From: Solobacterium sp.
GTDB lineage: Bacteria > Bacillota_I > Bacilli_A > Erysipelotrichales > Erysipelotrichaceae
Reading direction: 5' to 3'
Assembly (NCBI GenBank): GCA_017404505.1
Contig: JAFRCE010000026.1
Coordinates: 62,001 to 126,000 of the forward strand
Length of the DNA: 64,000 bases
The position numbers were made by a program, and so were the translations under genes. Numbering within the stretch: the stretch's first letter is position 1; each line of letters starts with the position of its first letter. Below, piece after piece: positions 42,350-50,887 of the stretch. The notes under the pieces were generated by a model. The model searched no databases. It was given only the letters and a program-made list of their open reading frames with translations, and was not told the DNA's origin.

Positions 42350-42357
42350 AAAAGGGC

Positions 42358-42384
42358 AGCTGCTTCCAAAGCGGCTGTTTTTTG
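42358..42384 (+). terminator. Terminator after the HAD gene
   Basis: CAGCTGCTT-CC-AAAGCGGCTG followed by T6. The next promoter's -10 (TACAAT, 42388-42393) follows at once. Confidence 0.85.
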
Positions 42385-42402: not shown

Positions 42403-44883
42403 ATGAAACGGACAGTACTGGGCATCCTGGCACACGTGGATGCCGGCAAGACAACCTGTATCGAAAGCATGCTGTATCTTTCCGGAGCGATCCGGAAAAT
42501 GGGCCGTGTCGATCATAAAGACGCCTTTCTTGACTATGACGAGCAGGAGAGGGATCACGGCATCACCATTTATGCCAAGGAGGCGCATTTTGTCTATGGC
42601 GATACAGAAGTTTTTGTCATCGACACACCCGGTCACGTCGATTTTTCCGCTGAAATGGAACGCACTCTGCAGGCGCTTGATCTGGCGGTCATTCTGATCA
42701 ACGGCCAGGACGGCGTGCAGGCGCATACCGAAACGATCTGGAACTGTCTGGCAACCTATCATGTGCCGTGTCTGATCTTCGTCAACAAAATGGACATTTC
42801 CTTCCGCAGCGAAGCAGAACTGCTGGGTGATCTGCAGAAACACTGTTCCTCTTTCTGTGTGCGCTGGGATGAAAGCAGAGACGAAGAACTGGCCATGGTC
42901 AGTGAAGAGATGATGAATCAGTATCTCGAGGAAGGACAGATTCCCGATGAAATGATCCGCCAGGCCGTTATAGAAAGAAAATGCTTCCCGGTCCTTTTCG
43001 GCTCCGCCCTGAAGCAGACCGGCATCCGGGAACTGCTGGACGCGGTGAGTGCGTACTGTCCGGAAAAAACCTATCCGGACGAATTCGGCGCCCGCATCTA
43101 CAAGATCTCCCGGGACAGCCAGGGCAGCCGTCTGACGCATGTGCGCATCACCGGCGGCGTGCTGAAAACAAAGCAGAAACTGAACGAAGAAGAGAAGGTC
43201 GATCAGATCCGCATCTACAACGGCCAGGACTACCAGGCGGTCAATGAGGCGGAGGCCGGCATGATCTGTGTCCTCAAAGGACCGGTTTCGCTGGAAGCGG
43301 GGCAGGGTCTCGGTTTTGAGGAAGATGCGGAAAAGCCGCTTCTGAACGCCTATATGGATTACCAGCTGAGCCTGCCGAAAGGCACCGACGTACTGGCTCT
43401 TTCCGAAACCATGCAGCAGCTGGCATCGGAAGATCCCCAGCTGATGATCACCAGCGATCCGGAAGCCCATGTCATCCGGCTTTCCATCATGGGCGAAATG
43501 CAGAAGGACGTCGTGCAGAAAAAGATCTATGAGCGGACCGGTATCCGGGTCGGCTTTTCCGAAGGCCGGGTCGTGTTCGCGGAAACCGTGGCCGAAAGCG
43601 TGGACGGCGCCGGTCACTTCGAACCGCTCCGCCACTATGCCGAGGTTCACGTCCGTCTCGATCCGCTGCCAAGAGGCGAAGGCATCGTCGTCGCTGACGA
43701 ATGTCCGCGGGACATGCTGTCGGCAAACTGGCGCCGTTCGATTCTTTCCGTGCTCAGAGAAACAAGGCACCGCGGGGTTCTGACCGGTTCGCTGCTGACC
43801 GATGTGAAGATCAGCCTGACAGCCGGCCGCGGTCATCTTAAACATACCGAAGGCGGTGACTTCCGCGAGGCGGCCCGCCGGGCAGTCCGACAGGCTTTGA
43901 AAAAAGCGGAATGCATCGTTCTTGAACCATATTATGAATTCACCCTGAAGCTGTCCTCGGAAGTTCTCAGCCGGGCATTATATGATTTGGAAACCAGATC
44001 CGCCACCGTGGAAGTGGAGGACCTCGGGGAAGGGATCATGCTGATCCACGGCCGCGGACCGGTCCGCAAACTGATGAACTATCAGGCGGAAGTATCGGCC
44101 TACACCCGCGGCAAGGGCATATTCACCTGCCGCACCTGCGGTTATGAAGCGTGCACCGATCAGGAAGAAGTCATCGCGGAAAGAGGCTATGACAGTGAAA
44201 CGGACCGCCGCCATCCGACCGGTTCCGTCTTCTGCGCGCATGGCTCCGGCTTTTACGTGCCGTGGGATGAAGCGGACCGGTATATGCACATCATCATGGA
44301 CCGGGAAGAAAGCACGTCTTCTTATGAGCACCGTCGCTATCATGTCGGGGAAGACGAGATGCAGCAGCTGGTTCATGCCGCTTCCTCCAACAACCGCAAT
44401 CTGCATAAAAACAGAAAACCGCGGAAGAAGGAAGACGAGGAACTGAAGAAAGTCAAAGCCAGACCGAATCTGCCGCCGTATATGATCGTCGACGGCTACA
44501 ACATGATCTATGAATATGAAGACCTCAAGGAACTGGCAAAGGAAGATCTGTACAACGCCAGAGAGAAACTGATCACCCGGCTGATGAATTATCAGGCCTA
44601 TGCCGATATCCCGATGGCCATCGTCTTCGACGGCTACAAAGTCAAAGACAATTTCGGCACGGTTCAGAAAATGGGCAGGGTGGAGGTCATTTATACGAGA
44701 ACCGATGAAACGGCCGATCAGCGGATCGAGAAAATGGCATATGACCTGCATGAAAAATACACGCTGACCGTCGTTTCTTCCGACGGTCTGATCCAGAACG
44801 CGGTATTCTCACAGGGCGCGCTGCGCATGTCGGCCCGTGAACTGCGTTCCCGCATGGACGCGCTGGACACGCTGCTGAAATGA
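42403..44883 (+). CDS. TetM/EF-G-like ribosomal GTPase fused to a Rae1/YacP-type NYN ribonuclease domain
   Basis: 826 residues. Residues 1-655 are a ribosome-protection-type translational GTPase: G1 AHVDAGKTT, G2 RDHGITI, G3 DTPGHVDF, G4 NKMD, G5 GSAL, then EF-G domains II-V. The region around 576-583 has an extra Cys cluster (CRTCGYEAC). A basic linker (about 655-690) leads to a C-terminal NYN domain (about 692-826) with putative catalytic acids in YMIVDGYNMIY, IVFDGYKV, DETADQRIE and VSSDG, the pattern of YacP/Rae1, which cuts mRNA in the ribosomal A site. Plain Tet proteins lack this domain. ATG 42403 has only a 9-nt gap from TACAAT and a weak Shine-Dalgarno. Confidence 0.88.
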   Translation: MKRTVLGILAHVDAGKTTCIESMLYLSGAIRKMGRVDHKDAFLDYDEQERDHGITIYAKEAHFVYGDTEVFVIDTPGHVDFSAEMERTLQALDLAVILINGQDGVQAHTETIWNCLATYHVPCLIFVNKMDISFRSEAELLGDLQKHCSSFCVRWDESRDEELAMVSEEMMNQYLEEGQIPDEMIRQAVIERKCFPVLFGSALKQTGIRELLDAVSAYCPEKTYPDEFGARIYKISRDSQGSRLTHVRITGGVLKTKQKLNEEEKVDQIRIYNGQDYQAVNEAEAGMICVLKGPVSLEAGQGLGFEEDAEKPLLNAYMDYQLSLPKGTDVLALSETMQQLASEDPQLMITSDPEAHVIRLSIMGEMQKDVVQKKIYERTGIRVGFSEGRVVFAETVAESVDGAGHFEPLRHYAEVHVRLDPLPRGEGIVVADECPRDMLSANWRRSILSVLRETRHRGVLTGSLLTDVKISLTAGRGHLKHTEGGDFREAARRAVRQALKKAECIVLEPYYEFTLKLSSEVLSRALYDLETRSATVEVEDLGEGIMLIHGRGPVRKLMNYQAEVSAYTRGKGIFTCRTCGYEACTDQEEVIAERGYDSETDRRHPTGSVFCAHGSGFYVPWDEADRYMHIIMDREESTSSYEHRRYHVGEDEMQQLVHAASSNNRNLHKNRKPRKKEDEELKKVKARPNLPPYMIVDGYNMIYEYEDLKELAKEDLYNAREKLITRLMNYQAYADIPMAIVFDGYKVKDNFGTVQKMGRVEVIYTRTDETADQRIEKMAYDLHEKYTLTVVSSDGLIQNAVFSQGALRMSARELRSRMDALDTLLK

Positions 44884-48073: not shown

Positions 48074-48097
48074 ATAAAAAAGACGAGGTTGTTTTTT

Positions 48098-48973
48098 ATG
48101 GAAACGATGCAGTCCATACTGGAAAAAGATAAAGAGAAATTTCTGCAGCTGCTGAACAGCGAAGACGACGCGGAGCGGGCAGCCGCACAGGTCAACCGTG
48201 AGCTGAGCCGCATCCTTTATGTCTTCAACGAGCAGGACGAAAGCGACGCTGTCAAAAAAGCCGCCATGCAGATGATCACCGCCGTGCAGGCTTCCGCCTC
48301 GCTGCTGGACAGTGCCGGAGCCACCGACGTATATCACCGCACGCAGCAGGAGACCAACAGCAACGGCCATCTGCCGGTCCGTTTCTGGATCTACGTGATG
48401 CTGACCGTGGCCTGTGGCGGCGGCGCCGTGGCCATGTATATTCTCAAAGGCAATCCGGTCTCATCGGTCATTGAACTGCCGCTGATTCTGGCTCTGCTGG
48501 TTCTGATGATCTTCTTTACCTTCCTGAGCGGCCGCAGTGCCCATAAAGTCACTGCCAGGCCGAAAGAAGAATACCTGACAAAGACAACTTTCGACGCCAT
48601 GAAGATCTACCGTTCACTGTTCACGACGGTCGTCGCCATTGACCGGCAGCTGCAGGACGTCCGCATGGATACCGCCATGGCTGAAAAGAAACAGCGTATT
48701 GAAACCCGCGGCAATCTGTCGGATGCCGAGCTTGACCTGCTTTCCTCACTGCTGGAAACAGCTTTGGCGGAAGAAGGGGACGGCGCGAAGCAGACGGTCT
48801 CGGAGATCAGTTACTATCTGCACCGGAAGGGTGCCGAAGTCGTGCATTATTCCGCCGATCATAAACCATGGTTTGACATGATGCCGTCCGGCGGCGGTTC
48901 CGGAACGATCCGGCCGGCCATTGTCATGGACGGCAATGTCCTGCGGAAAGGACTCGCGGCAGGAGGACAGTAA
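48098..48973 (+). CDS. Two-helix membrane protein, partner of the Hsp70-like protein
   Basis: 291 residues, not recognised. A helical, acidic N-terminal domain (1-90), a hairpin of two transmembrane helices (about 97-117 and 124-145), then a helical cytosolic domain (about 150-250) and a Gly-rich tail (PSGGGSGTIRPAIVMDGN). ATG 48098 after GACGAGG; an in-frame TTG three codons upstream is less likely. Only 3 nt separate it from the Hsp70-like gene, implying a common complex. Confidence 0.75.
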   Translation: METMQSILEKDKEKFLQLLNSEDDAERAAAQVNRELSRILYVFNEQDESDAVKKAAMQMITAVQASASLLDSAGATDVYHRTQQETNSNGHLPVRFWIYVMLTVACGGGAVAMYILKGNPVSSVIELPLILALLVLMIFFTFLSGRSAHKVTARPKEEYLTKTTFDAMKIYRSLFTTVVAIDRQLQDVRMDTAMAEKKQRIETRGNLSDAELDLLSSLLETALAEEGDGAKQTVSEISYYLHRKGAEVVHYSADHKPWFDMMPSGGGSGTIRPAIVMDGNVLRKGLAAGGQ

Positions 48974-48976
48974 AAG

Positions 48977-50887
48977 ATGGACAGATACTACGGATTTGAT
49001 CTGGGCGACGCCGAAAGTGCGGTTGCCCGTCTGGAAAAGGAAGACAGCGAACCGGAAGTTCTCACCGTTCAGGATGAGAAGAGTTTTATCACGGCATTCG
49101 CCCAGCTGAAAGACGGCCAGCTTCTGGTCGGTGAAAAAGCCTGCTACGCACCGGACGCGGTGCTCCGCAAGATCCGCTTCAAAAGCCGCTATCTGACCGA
49201 TCCTTCCGTCAAAAAGGACATCACCGGTTTCGCGGCCGGTGTGCTTGGCGAGCTGTATACCAACGCTTCACTGCTGAAGGGCGGCGACGACTGTTTCTAC
49301 ATCGGCTGTCCGGCCGGATGGGACAAGGCTGCCCGGGAAGAATACCGTGAAATCTTCGAGAAGATCGGCTATCCGCCGGCGAAGATCATATCCGAGTCTA
49401 GAGCGGCGCTGGTCAGTGCCTGTCAGTCCCGTCATCTGCAGGTCGGCTATGACATTCTCAAAAAGCCGGTCCTGGTCATTGACGTCGGCTCCTCGACGAC
49501 GGATTTCGCCTATATCATGGGCGGCAAGGAAGTCCAGCTGCAGACCGGCGGCGAAGTGTTCTTCGGCGGTGGTATCATGGACGAAGTGCTGCTGGAAATC
49601 TGTGTGGCGGACTCGCCGCACGCCAAGAAGATCCGCCGTATCTTTGAAGAAAGTGAACCGTGGAAGAACTACTGTGAATTCGCGGCCCGCCGTCTGAAGG
49701 AGAAATACTTCAGCGACGAGGAATACTGGCAGAACAATGAATGCACGCAGATCGTGACGATCCGTCATACCGCATTGCCGGTGCGTCTGACGCTGCATAT
49801 GAACAGGTCGATCGCGGACAAGCTTCTGAACCAGAAGGTAGAGAAGCTGCAGAACCGTTCTTTCAAGGAAATGTTTATCGATTCCCTCAGGGACGCGAAA
49901 GCGTCACTGACGGAAAAGCAGCCGGAAATGATCTTCCTGACCGGCGGCGTTTCCAAACTGCCGGCCATGAAGGGCTGGTGCCGGGAAGTATTCCCGGATG
50001 CCGTGCTGATCAGCGGCGCCGATCCGGAATTCTCGGTCGCCAAAGGTCTTGCCTACTGCGGCCGCATCGATGACGAGCTGCGTGCCTTCAAGGAGGAGGT
50101 GGATCTGCTGATCTCCTCGACCGTGGTGGAACGCATCGTTTCCGAACATATGCCGGAACTGTACAAAGCGGCTGTCAAAACGCTGATCGAACCGATCATC
50201 GAAGAAGCTGCCTGGCCGGTCGTCGACAGATGGCGCAGCGGCCACGTGCAGAAGCTTTCCGATATCAACGGCGAACTGCAGAAGGAAATCGACTTTTTCC
50301 TGCATTCCGAAAAAGCCAGAACGCTTCTGACCAAACCGATTACTTCCTGGCTGAAAACCGTCGCCTATGATCTGGAAGAATACACGATTCCGATCTGTAC
50401 CAGACACAACGTGCCGTATTCGGCTCTGAATCTGAATTCCTACCTGGCCGTTCAGGACATCGAGATCCAGATGGCGGCGGAGGATGTCTTCGCCATCAAG
50501 GAAATCACCTGGACGATCGATACGCTCGTGTCACTGATCATCGGCTTCCTTTGCGGCGGCAACGGCATCGCTGTCATTGCCAGCGGTCTGCCGGGCATCG
50601 TCGCCGGAGCTGTCATTTCGCTTCTTGTTCTCGCTCTCGGCAAGGAAAAGATGGAAGAGGCGATCCTCAACGCCGATATTCCGCATTTCCTCAGACGTCT
50701 GATCCCGAAGATGTATCTGAAGGCGCGTCTGGATGTCGTCAGTGAGGAAGTGAAGAAAAACCTGTACCAGAGTCTGGAACAGGAAAAGAACGACGAGATC
50801 TCGGAACGGGTGGCCAAGGAAATTTCCGAACAGATCGAGACGTGTCTTGTGCACATGGCGGAAGTCGTCGAGATTCCGCTCGGCTGA
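48977..50887 (+). CDS. Hsp70/actin-like ATPase with C-terminal membrane hairpin
   Basis: 636 residues. Residues 1-380 carry an Hsp70-type ATPase: phosphate-1 motif YYGFDLGDAES (4-14), phosphate-2 VLVIDVGSSTTDFAYIMGG (about 172-190) and adenosine motif IFLTGGVSKLPAM (about 318-330). The usual beta-sandwich substrate domain is missing; instead there is a helical region and two hydrophobic helices (about 517-556, GFLCGGNGIAVIASGLPGIVAG in between), then an amphipathic C-terminus. Known Hsp70s are not membrane-integral in this way. Function unknown; probably works with the preceding membrane protein. Confidence 0.8.
   Translation: MDRYYGFDLGDAESAVARLEKEDSEPEVLTVQDEKSFITAFAQLKDGQLLVGEKACYAPDAVLRKIRFKSRYLTDPSVKKDITGFAAGVLGELYTNASLLKGGDDCFYIGCPAGWDKAAREEYREIFEKIGYPPAKIISESRAALVSACQSRHLQVGYDILKKPVLVIDVGSSTTDFAYIMGGKEVQLQTGGEVFFGGGIMDEVLLEICVADSPHAKKIRRIFEESEPWKNYCEFAARRLKEKYFSDEEYWQNNECTQIVTIRHTALPVRLTLHMNRSIADKLLNQKVEKLQNRSFKEMFIDSLRDAKASLTEKQPEMIFLTGGVSKLPAMKGWCREVFPDAVLISGADPEFSVAKGLAYCGRIDDELRAFKEEVDLLISSTVVERIVSEHMPELYKAAVKTLIEPIIEEAAWPVVDRWRSGHVQKLSDINGELQKEIDFFLHSEKARTLLTKPITSWLKTVAYDLEEYTIPICTRHNVPYSALNLNSYLAVQDIEIQMAAEDVFAIKEITWTIDTLVSLIIGFLCGGNGIAVIASGLPGIVAGAVISLLVLALGKEKMEEAILNADIPHFLRRLIPKMYLKARLDVVSEEVKKNLYQSLEQEKNDEISERVAKEISEQIETCLVHMAEVVEIPLG

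Follow-up and report, generated by a model that had tools for sequence, protein, structure and literature searches.

The window (the whole 64,000-nucleotide stretch of Solobacterium DNA that was analysed) contains a gene in which a translational GTPase is joined, in a single polypeptide, to a nuclease domain that is a true relative of Rae1 by both sequence and fold. This fusion is carried widely on the chromosomes of Erysipelotrichales and Clostridia, as one copy per genome, and stands in for standalone Rae1 there; in the genomes sampled, the two were mutually exclusive. Judged from sequence, the chances are slightly better than even that the encoded protein works as a Rae1 assisted by a GTPase, cutting mRNA when the ribosomal A site is vacant, and not as a tetracycline-resistance protein.

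The gene is a single frame from ATG to stop, with no internal stop codons, and its features are:

42403..44883, + strand: coding sequence of a translational GTPase with a Rae1/YacP-type NYN nuclease, 826 aa (110 full-length homologues aligned)
42403..43086, + strand: G domain, aa 1-228 (Pfam GTP_EFTU; motif conservation)
43087..43566, + strand: domains II and III, about aa 229-388 (Pfam EF-G_D2, EFG_III)
43567..43911, + strand: domain IV, aa 389-503 (Pfam EFG_IV; conservation per module)
43825..43866, + strand: loop III of domain IV, aa 475-488, GRGHLKHTEGGDFR (alignment; K480 at the position of TetM Pro509)
43912..44118, + strand: domain V, aa 504-572 (Pfam EFG_C)
44119..44298, + strand: Tet-type C-terminal extension with an insertion, carrying C584, C611 and H613 (alignments)
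44299..44475, + strand: low-confidence (flexible) linker of about 60 aa (AlphaFold2 model, family alignment)
44476..44880, + strand: NYN (Rae1/YacP) nuclease domain, aa 692-826 (Pfam, sequence match, structure match)
44491..44493, + strand: acidic residue D697 (Rae1 D7), in 120/120 fusions and 23/23 standalone Rae1
44629..44631, + strand: acidic residue D743 (Rae1 D53), in 120/120 fusions and 23/23 standalone Rae1
44716..44718, + strand: acidic residue D772 (Rae1 D81), in 120/120 fusions and 23/23 standalone Rae1
44782..44784, + strand: acidic residue D794 (Rae1 D104), in 120/120 fusions and 23/23 standalone Rae1

A Pfam search of the window protein identified GTP_EFTU (residues 5-220, E 2.5e-48), EF-G_D2 (229-301), EFG_III (328-384), EFG_IV (390-503, E 1.6e-14), EFG_C (506-587, E 3.1e-14), and NYN_YacP (694-821, E 3.4e-40). 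Its G motifs read AHVDAGKT, HGIT, DTPGH, NKMD, and GSA, with RGIT replacing HGIT in most relatives. The homologue collection proposed in a first-pass annotation of this DNA yielded an alignment of 110 full-length fusions from many species, comprising those of the window's class and 72 named ones from other genomes. Essentially every aligned sequence retained AHVD-A/S-GKT, GIT, DTPGH, NKxD, and GSA. With these motifs kept across the homologues and all Pfam domains within 826 codons, the uninterrupted GTPase-NYN frame described in that annotation was borne out, and an assembly artefact was ruled out by the presence of an intact fusion in 110 aligned genomes. Domain IV, which in TetM and EF-G extends into the A site, was the most conserved module of the family, with a mean pairwise identity of 0.65, followed by the NYN domain (0.55), the G domain (0.52), domain II (0.47), the extension (0.44), domains III and V (both 0.42), and the linker (0.20). 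In an AlphaFold2 model based on 27 sequences, the GTPase and NYN parts were both confident and were separated by a low-confidence stretch (residues 635-686). Across the family, the linker measures 44-99 aa (median 62); in the model of the window protein it holds one helix (aa 650-662), a counterpart of which is retained in nuclease-only relatives.

The C-terminal part of the fusion matched the sequence of the Bacillus subtilis Rae1/YacP crystal structures 5mq8 and 5mq9 (E 1.2e-23). When the NYN domain was modeled separately (mean pLDDT 92), Rae1 crystal structures were its sole strong Foldseek matches (5mq9: E 9e-11, TM 0.80). The first-pass annotation had called for a structure prediction of this region and, as an NYN fold was found in it, the concern that no such fold might exist was set aside. 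Its assignment of a Rae1/YacP-type NYN domain with acidic residues likewise held, given the Pfam and structure matches and the invariance of the four Asp residues, which were also present in 110/110 aligned full-length fusions. The positions that were invariant in 23 standalone Rae1 sequences (DGYN, R, FD, T, TAD, E, SD, and Q) were, with few exceptions, retained in fusions and reduced forms. In a tree of NYN domains, from which two very divergent matches (L220 and L221) were excluded, 129 fusion-type domains, including that of the window, formed one clade (support 0.98). One standalone NYN domain on a long branch (L219) was placed inside this clade, a probable case of long-branch attraction.

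Named fusions were found in Holdemania, Catenisphaera, Solobacterium, many Lachnospiraceae, Oscillospiraceae, one Peptostreptococcaceae bin, and Desulfosporosinus. Twenty named genomes each contained one above-cut-off NYN_YacP match, always within a long frame, and in the samples of the window's class and phylum all such matches lay in the fusion or in a derived form. The Solobacterium genome itself encodes one NYN_YacP domain (in the fusion), one EF-G besides the fusion, and SmpB. Among 291 Clostridia genomes, NYN_YacP occurred in 188, fused in 105 and standalone in 83, and no genome had both; for some 30 weaker matches in this count, fusion status was deduced from a search for the GTPase. 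The exclusion gave 1.5e-20 in a naive Fisher test, a value that ignores relatedness and is inflated by shared ancestry, genome counts being phylogenetically non-independent. Second NYN matches in three genomes (G668, G733, and G774) were sub-threshold. In a genome of the same genus as that of the window (L025/L065), the fusion was present as overlapping frames for a 712-aa GTPase and a 160-aa NYN protein (L065, 4942-7515), which may reflect natural fission, a frameshift, or a sequencing error.

In TetM, loop III of domain IV (YYSPVSTPADF) places Pro509 in the tetracycline site, where it contacts C1054 of 16S rRNA (PMC8161019). The corresponding loop of the fusion family reads H-x-KHTEGGDFR, with KHT where TetM has SPV, and K480, H481, and T482 were conserved in 108, 109, and 108 of the 110 aligned fusions, respectively. 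By alignment, the KHT tip is thus a different and strongly constrained tip relative to that of TetM. A profile covering domain IV to the extension separated the family (at least 258 bits) cleanly from other factors (at most 123 bits). Three members (L239, L240, and L241) had domain IV profile scores of 258-300 bits, far below those of other fusions, and represent a divergent branch. One of them, an 841-aa fusion from a Clostridia genome (L240, 1009-3532; genome G764), has kept its NYN domain and, as RHTEGGDF, a KHT-type loop; its G1 motif is altered to ASADTGKT and its use of GTP is possibly altered as well.

The Cys residues near position 580 (C576, C579, and C584) had initially been read as an additional cluster unlike TetM. 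This reading held less well than proposed, and the cluster as first described is not a feature of the family: C579 is not conserved and C576 is Cys in 61/110 aligned fusions, while C584 and C611 are common (93/110 and 102/110, respectively). Poor conservation of C576 and C579 ruled these residues out as a zinc-binding cluster defining the family. Motifs in this region run parallel in TetM (GY...VC...DKVRYMF) and in the fusion (GY...VFC...WDEVxxYMH). Compared in this way, the Cys-bearing stretch is a Tet-type C-terminal extension with an insertion, altered from TetM, and not an unrelated cluster.

In a GTPase-assisted Rae1, the EF-G/Tet-type half would bind the ribosome at the factor site, and domain IV with its KHT tip would act on a vacant or obstructed decoding A site, either probing or clearing it. 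The NYN nuclease, on its flexible tether of roughly 60 residues, would then follow into this site, probably while the GTPase half is reorienting or departing after GTP hydrolysis. Its cut in the exposed mRNA would create a non-stop complex on which tmRNA-SmpB could act. We infer ribosome binding, the A-site mRNA target and its cleavage, the dependence on GTP, and the order of these steps. The ribosomal A site is where Rae1 attacks mRNA, and the targets known for Rae1 are translated mRNAs; a cut in A-site mRNA is required before tmRNA acts (PMC12320835). A Rae1-like job on the ribosome is favored because the fusion replaces Rae1, never co-occurs with it, and has a strongly constrained domain IV. 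The same replacement and constraint favor, at the level of sequence, the earlier suggestion of an A-site nuclease docked by a GTPase. Some considerations count against this proposal. Domain IV would be in competition with a docked Rae1 for the A site, so the halves would have to act in turn; a long linker and an ordered hand-over are invoked because both cannot occupy the site at once. Moreover, standalone Rae1 of Bacillus works without a fused GTPase. In a more specific version of the proposal, domain IV would inspect vacant or blocked A sites in a GTP-timed manner and thereby license the cut by the tethered Rae1. The protein would then be a sensor and cutter in one and, for many gut Clostridia and Erysipelotrichales, a main nuclease of mRNA surveillance. 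We regard this version as plausible, with a probability somewhat below even.

The profile search also detected the same GTPase without a nuclease in 17 clostridial genomes, mostly as proteins of 653-729 aa. The sequences retrieved (L224-L237, L242, and L243) stop directly behind the YMH(C) motif and retain the KHT loop. The unfused KHT-loop GTPases group in a single clade (support 1.0) that lies among the fusions, so loss of the nuclease is likelier than an ancestral unfused state, and these proteins probably lost it; the root of the tree that disfavors the ancestral state is weak because the TetM branch is long (2.3). Standalone Rae1 was present in 10 of the 17 genomes, so that GTPase and nuclease occur in cis or in trans. 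The other 7 lacked any Rae1, which suggests that the GTPase has some value alone and counts against a GTPase-assisted Rae1. Among genomes without the fusion, the association between NYN-less GTPase and standalone Rae1 was not significant (odds 1.9, p 0.31).

In genus g4, which belongs to the window's family, domains IV and V are missing from the protein of two species, in which domains G-II-III and the nuclease have been kept (L064, 615 aa; L093, 603 aa), while six have the linker helix and nuclease only (L092 and L094-L098; 201-226 aa). The NYN domain and linker helix were intact in every one of these reduced forms. Genes flanking L094-L098 (clusters 6, 7, 5, 10, and 18) are common to the full-length fusions L099 and L103, which indicates that the GTPase was lost in place. 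According to the NYN tree, the GTPase was lost at least twice (L092; L094-L098) and domains IV-V once (L064 and L093). Other GTPase matches in these g4 genomes reached no more than 184 bits to the window protein (25-30% identity, in EF-G-like frames), a weak score, so the genomes hold no second close member of the family. The GTPase and nuclease modules are separable in nature, a further point against a GTPase-assisted Rae1, and a self-contained factor, as worded in the first-pass annotation, was not supported.

Survival of both nuclease-only and GTPase-only forms is the strongest point in favor of uncoupled functions, with a specialized translation factor and an ordinary Rae1 merely residing in one polypeptide, and the long, poorly conserved linker (0.20 identity, 44-99 aa) is consistent with such an arrangement. 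However, the fusion has been kept across two large groups with its NYN domains in one clade, each half has relatives that act at one and the same site on the ribosome, and no standalone Rae1 was found wherever the fusion occurs. We consider uncoupled functions unlikely, although they fare best among the alternatives to a GTPase-assisted Rae1.

A resistance role was previously suggested for Tet-NYN fusions (Atkinson 2015, PMC4342817). In such ribosomal protection, which we rate as rather unlikely, tetracycline, or a different A-site drug, would be dislodged by the Tet half, with the NYN domain contributing an RNase-based resistance step. The domain order and extension are indeed TetM-like, the best PDB sequence match of residues 2-600 of the window protein was TetM (E 2.5e-66), the best NCBIfam model was tet_protect (NF012153), and RefSeq applies a TetM/TetW/TetO/TetS label to a copy from Agathobacter. 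However, the tet_protect score (385.9 bits) was half of the curated cut-off of 775, and loop III carries a conserved Lys at the position of TetM Pro509. The altered loop alone does not exclude drug displacement, because the TetM triple mutant S508A/P509A/V510A remains active (PMC4750697). Among the strongest points against resistance are the single-copy, chromosomal, and core-like occurrence of the gene in two large groups, and the two species that retain the nuclease without domain IV. In plasmid records, the fusion was found in only 2 of 72,556, both large and non-mobilizable, whereas TetM, TetO, and TetS occur on many mobile plasmids. The first-pass description of a TetM-like GTPase thus stands as far as descent is concerned, but not with respect to the KHT loop, the low tet_protect score, and the near-absence from plasmids. 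With the EF-G model TIGR00484, the window protein scored 262.3 bits (cut-off 659.4), and in a Foldseek search with the whole-protein model the best matches were EF-G.

The Agathobacter fusion (L198, 5622-8423), named a TetM/TetW/TetO/TetS family tetracycline resistance protein by RefSeq, was not flagged by the resistance predictors of the same record, and its label is likely an over-annotation. A complete 890-aa fusion was also present in an unverified faecal contig filed as 'Bacteriophage sp.' (MT835514; L201, 2864-5534), which is probably a misfiled bacterial contig. In view of this probable bacterial source and of the size and non-mobilizable nature of the only two plasmid records, a phage or plasmid origin of the fusion was rejected.

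Cleavage of rRNA or tRNA, in maturation or in ribosome inactivation or decay, appears improbable. A translational GTPase would position the nuclease near the decoding centre and the A-site tRNA, and for a YacP-like NYN domain, Anantharaman and Aravind (as cited in PMC4342817) proposed a function in the maturation of rRNA and tRNA. Against such a role, residues conserved in Rae1 are retained in the NYN half, and translated mRNAs are the targets known for Rae1 (PMC12320835).

Between an upstream HAD-type gene and the fusion, a terminator-like hairpin with a U6 run (42351..42383, + strand; -18.1 kcal/mol, z -2.1, a modest value) hints at separate transcription. No operon partner or constant neighbor gene was found, and neighbors differ even within the genus. 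PADLOC gave no match for the fusion protein or its neighbors. Elsewhere in the window (48089-50887), two adjacent genes without a PADLOC match encode a 294-aa protein with hydrophobic stretches and a 636-aa protein that, read from its sequence, resembles an Hsp70/actin-like ATPase and has a hydrophobic segment. RelE-type toxins arrest translation by cleaving mRNA in the A site. Although A-site cleavage by the fusion would arrest translation in a RelE-like manner (PMC12320835), the defence or stress effector envisaged in the first-pass annotation, here taken as one that shuts down translation on infection, is highly improbable in view of the PADLOC result, the lack of a constant partner gene, and the core-like distribution.

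Should the cut prove to be under GTPase control, dominant gut bacteria would possess a stall sensor and mRNA cutter in one protein, with implications for how A-site nucleases such as Rae1 reach stalled ribosomes selectively. The natural series of full fusions, forms without domains IV-V, nuclease-only forms, and GTPase-only forms provides ready variants to dissect this coupling. Copies of a core-like gene that are publicly labeled as tetracycline resistance may also inflate resistance-gene counts in gut metagenomes. No later functional work on a Tet-NYN fusion was found in the literature searched, with several key Rae1 papers, one of them on Rae1 distribution, outside its reach. As far as could be checked, this analysis is the first to describe the exclusivity with Rae1, the reduction series, and the KHT tip.

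Among known systems, EF-G shares the five-domain fold, but the fusion falls below the EF-G cut-off and the same genome encodes a separate 694-aa EF-G. TetM, TetO, and TetS (PDB 3j9y, 4v6v) have all domains G-II-III-IV-V and the C-terminal extension in common with the fusion at about 28-30% identity. The fusion differs from them in loop III (LKHTEGGDF for SPVSTPADF), in the insertion in its extension, in its added linker and nuclease, and in not being mobile. Rae1/YacP of B. subtilis (5mq8, 5mq9) shares the NYN fold, the four acidic residues, and most invariant positions, but is a standalone protein of 170 aa whose gene lies between rlmB and sigH. In the fusion, the NYN domain is instead the C-terminal domain of an 826-aa GTPase, encoded at unrelated loci and with a shortened C-terminal tail, so the window gene does not qualify as Rae1 itself, which is short, standalone, and encoded at rlmB-sigH. 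The unfused KHT-loop GTPases of Clostridia have the same GTPase, extension, and KHT loop, and differ in lacking the nuclease. The Tet-YacP/NYN architecture itself was reported from ten clostridial species, without functional work (Atkinson 2015, BMC Genomics 16:78, PMC4342817). Those Tet-NYN fusions of Clostridiales likewise combine a Tet-family translational GTPase and a YacP-like NYN domain in one polypeptide and share the NYN clade; beyond that report, the present analysis adds the occurrence in Erysipelotrichales, the replacement of Rae1, the reduction series, and the distinct tip of domain IV.
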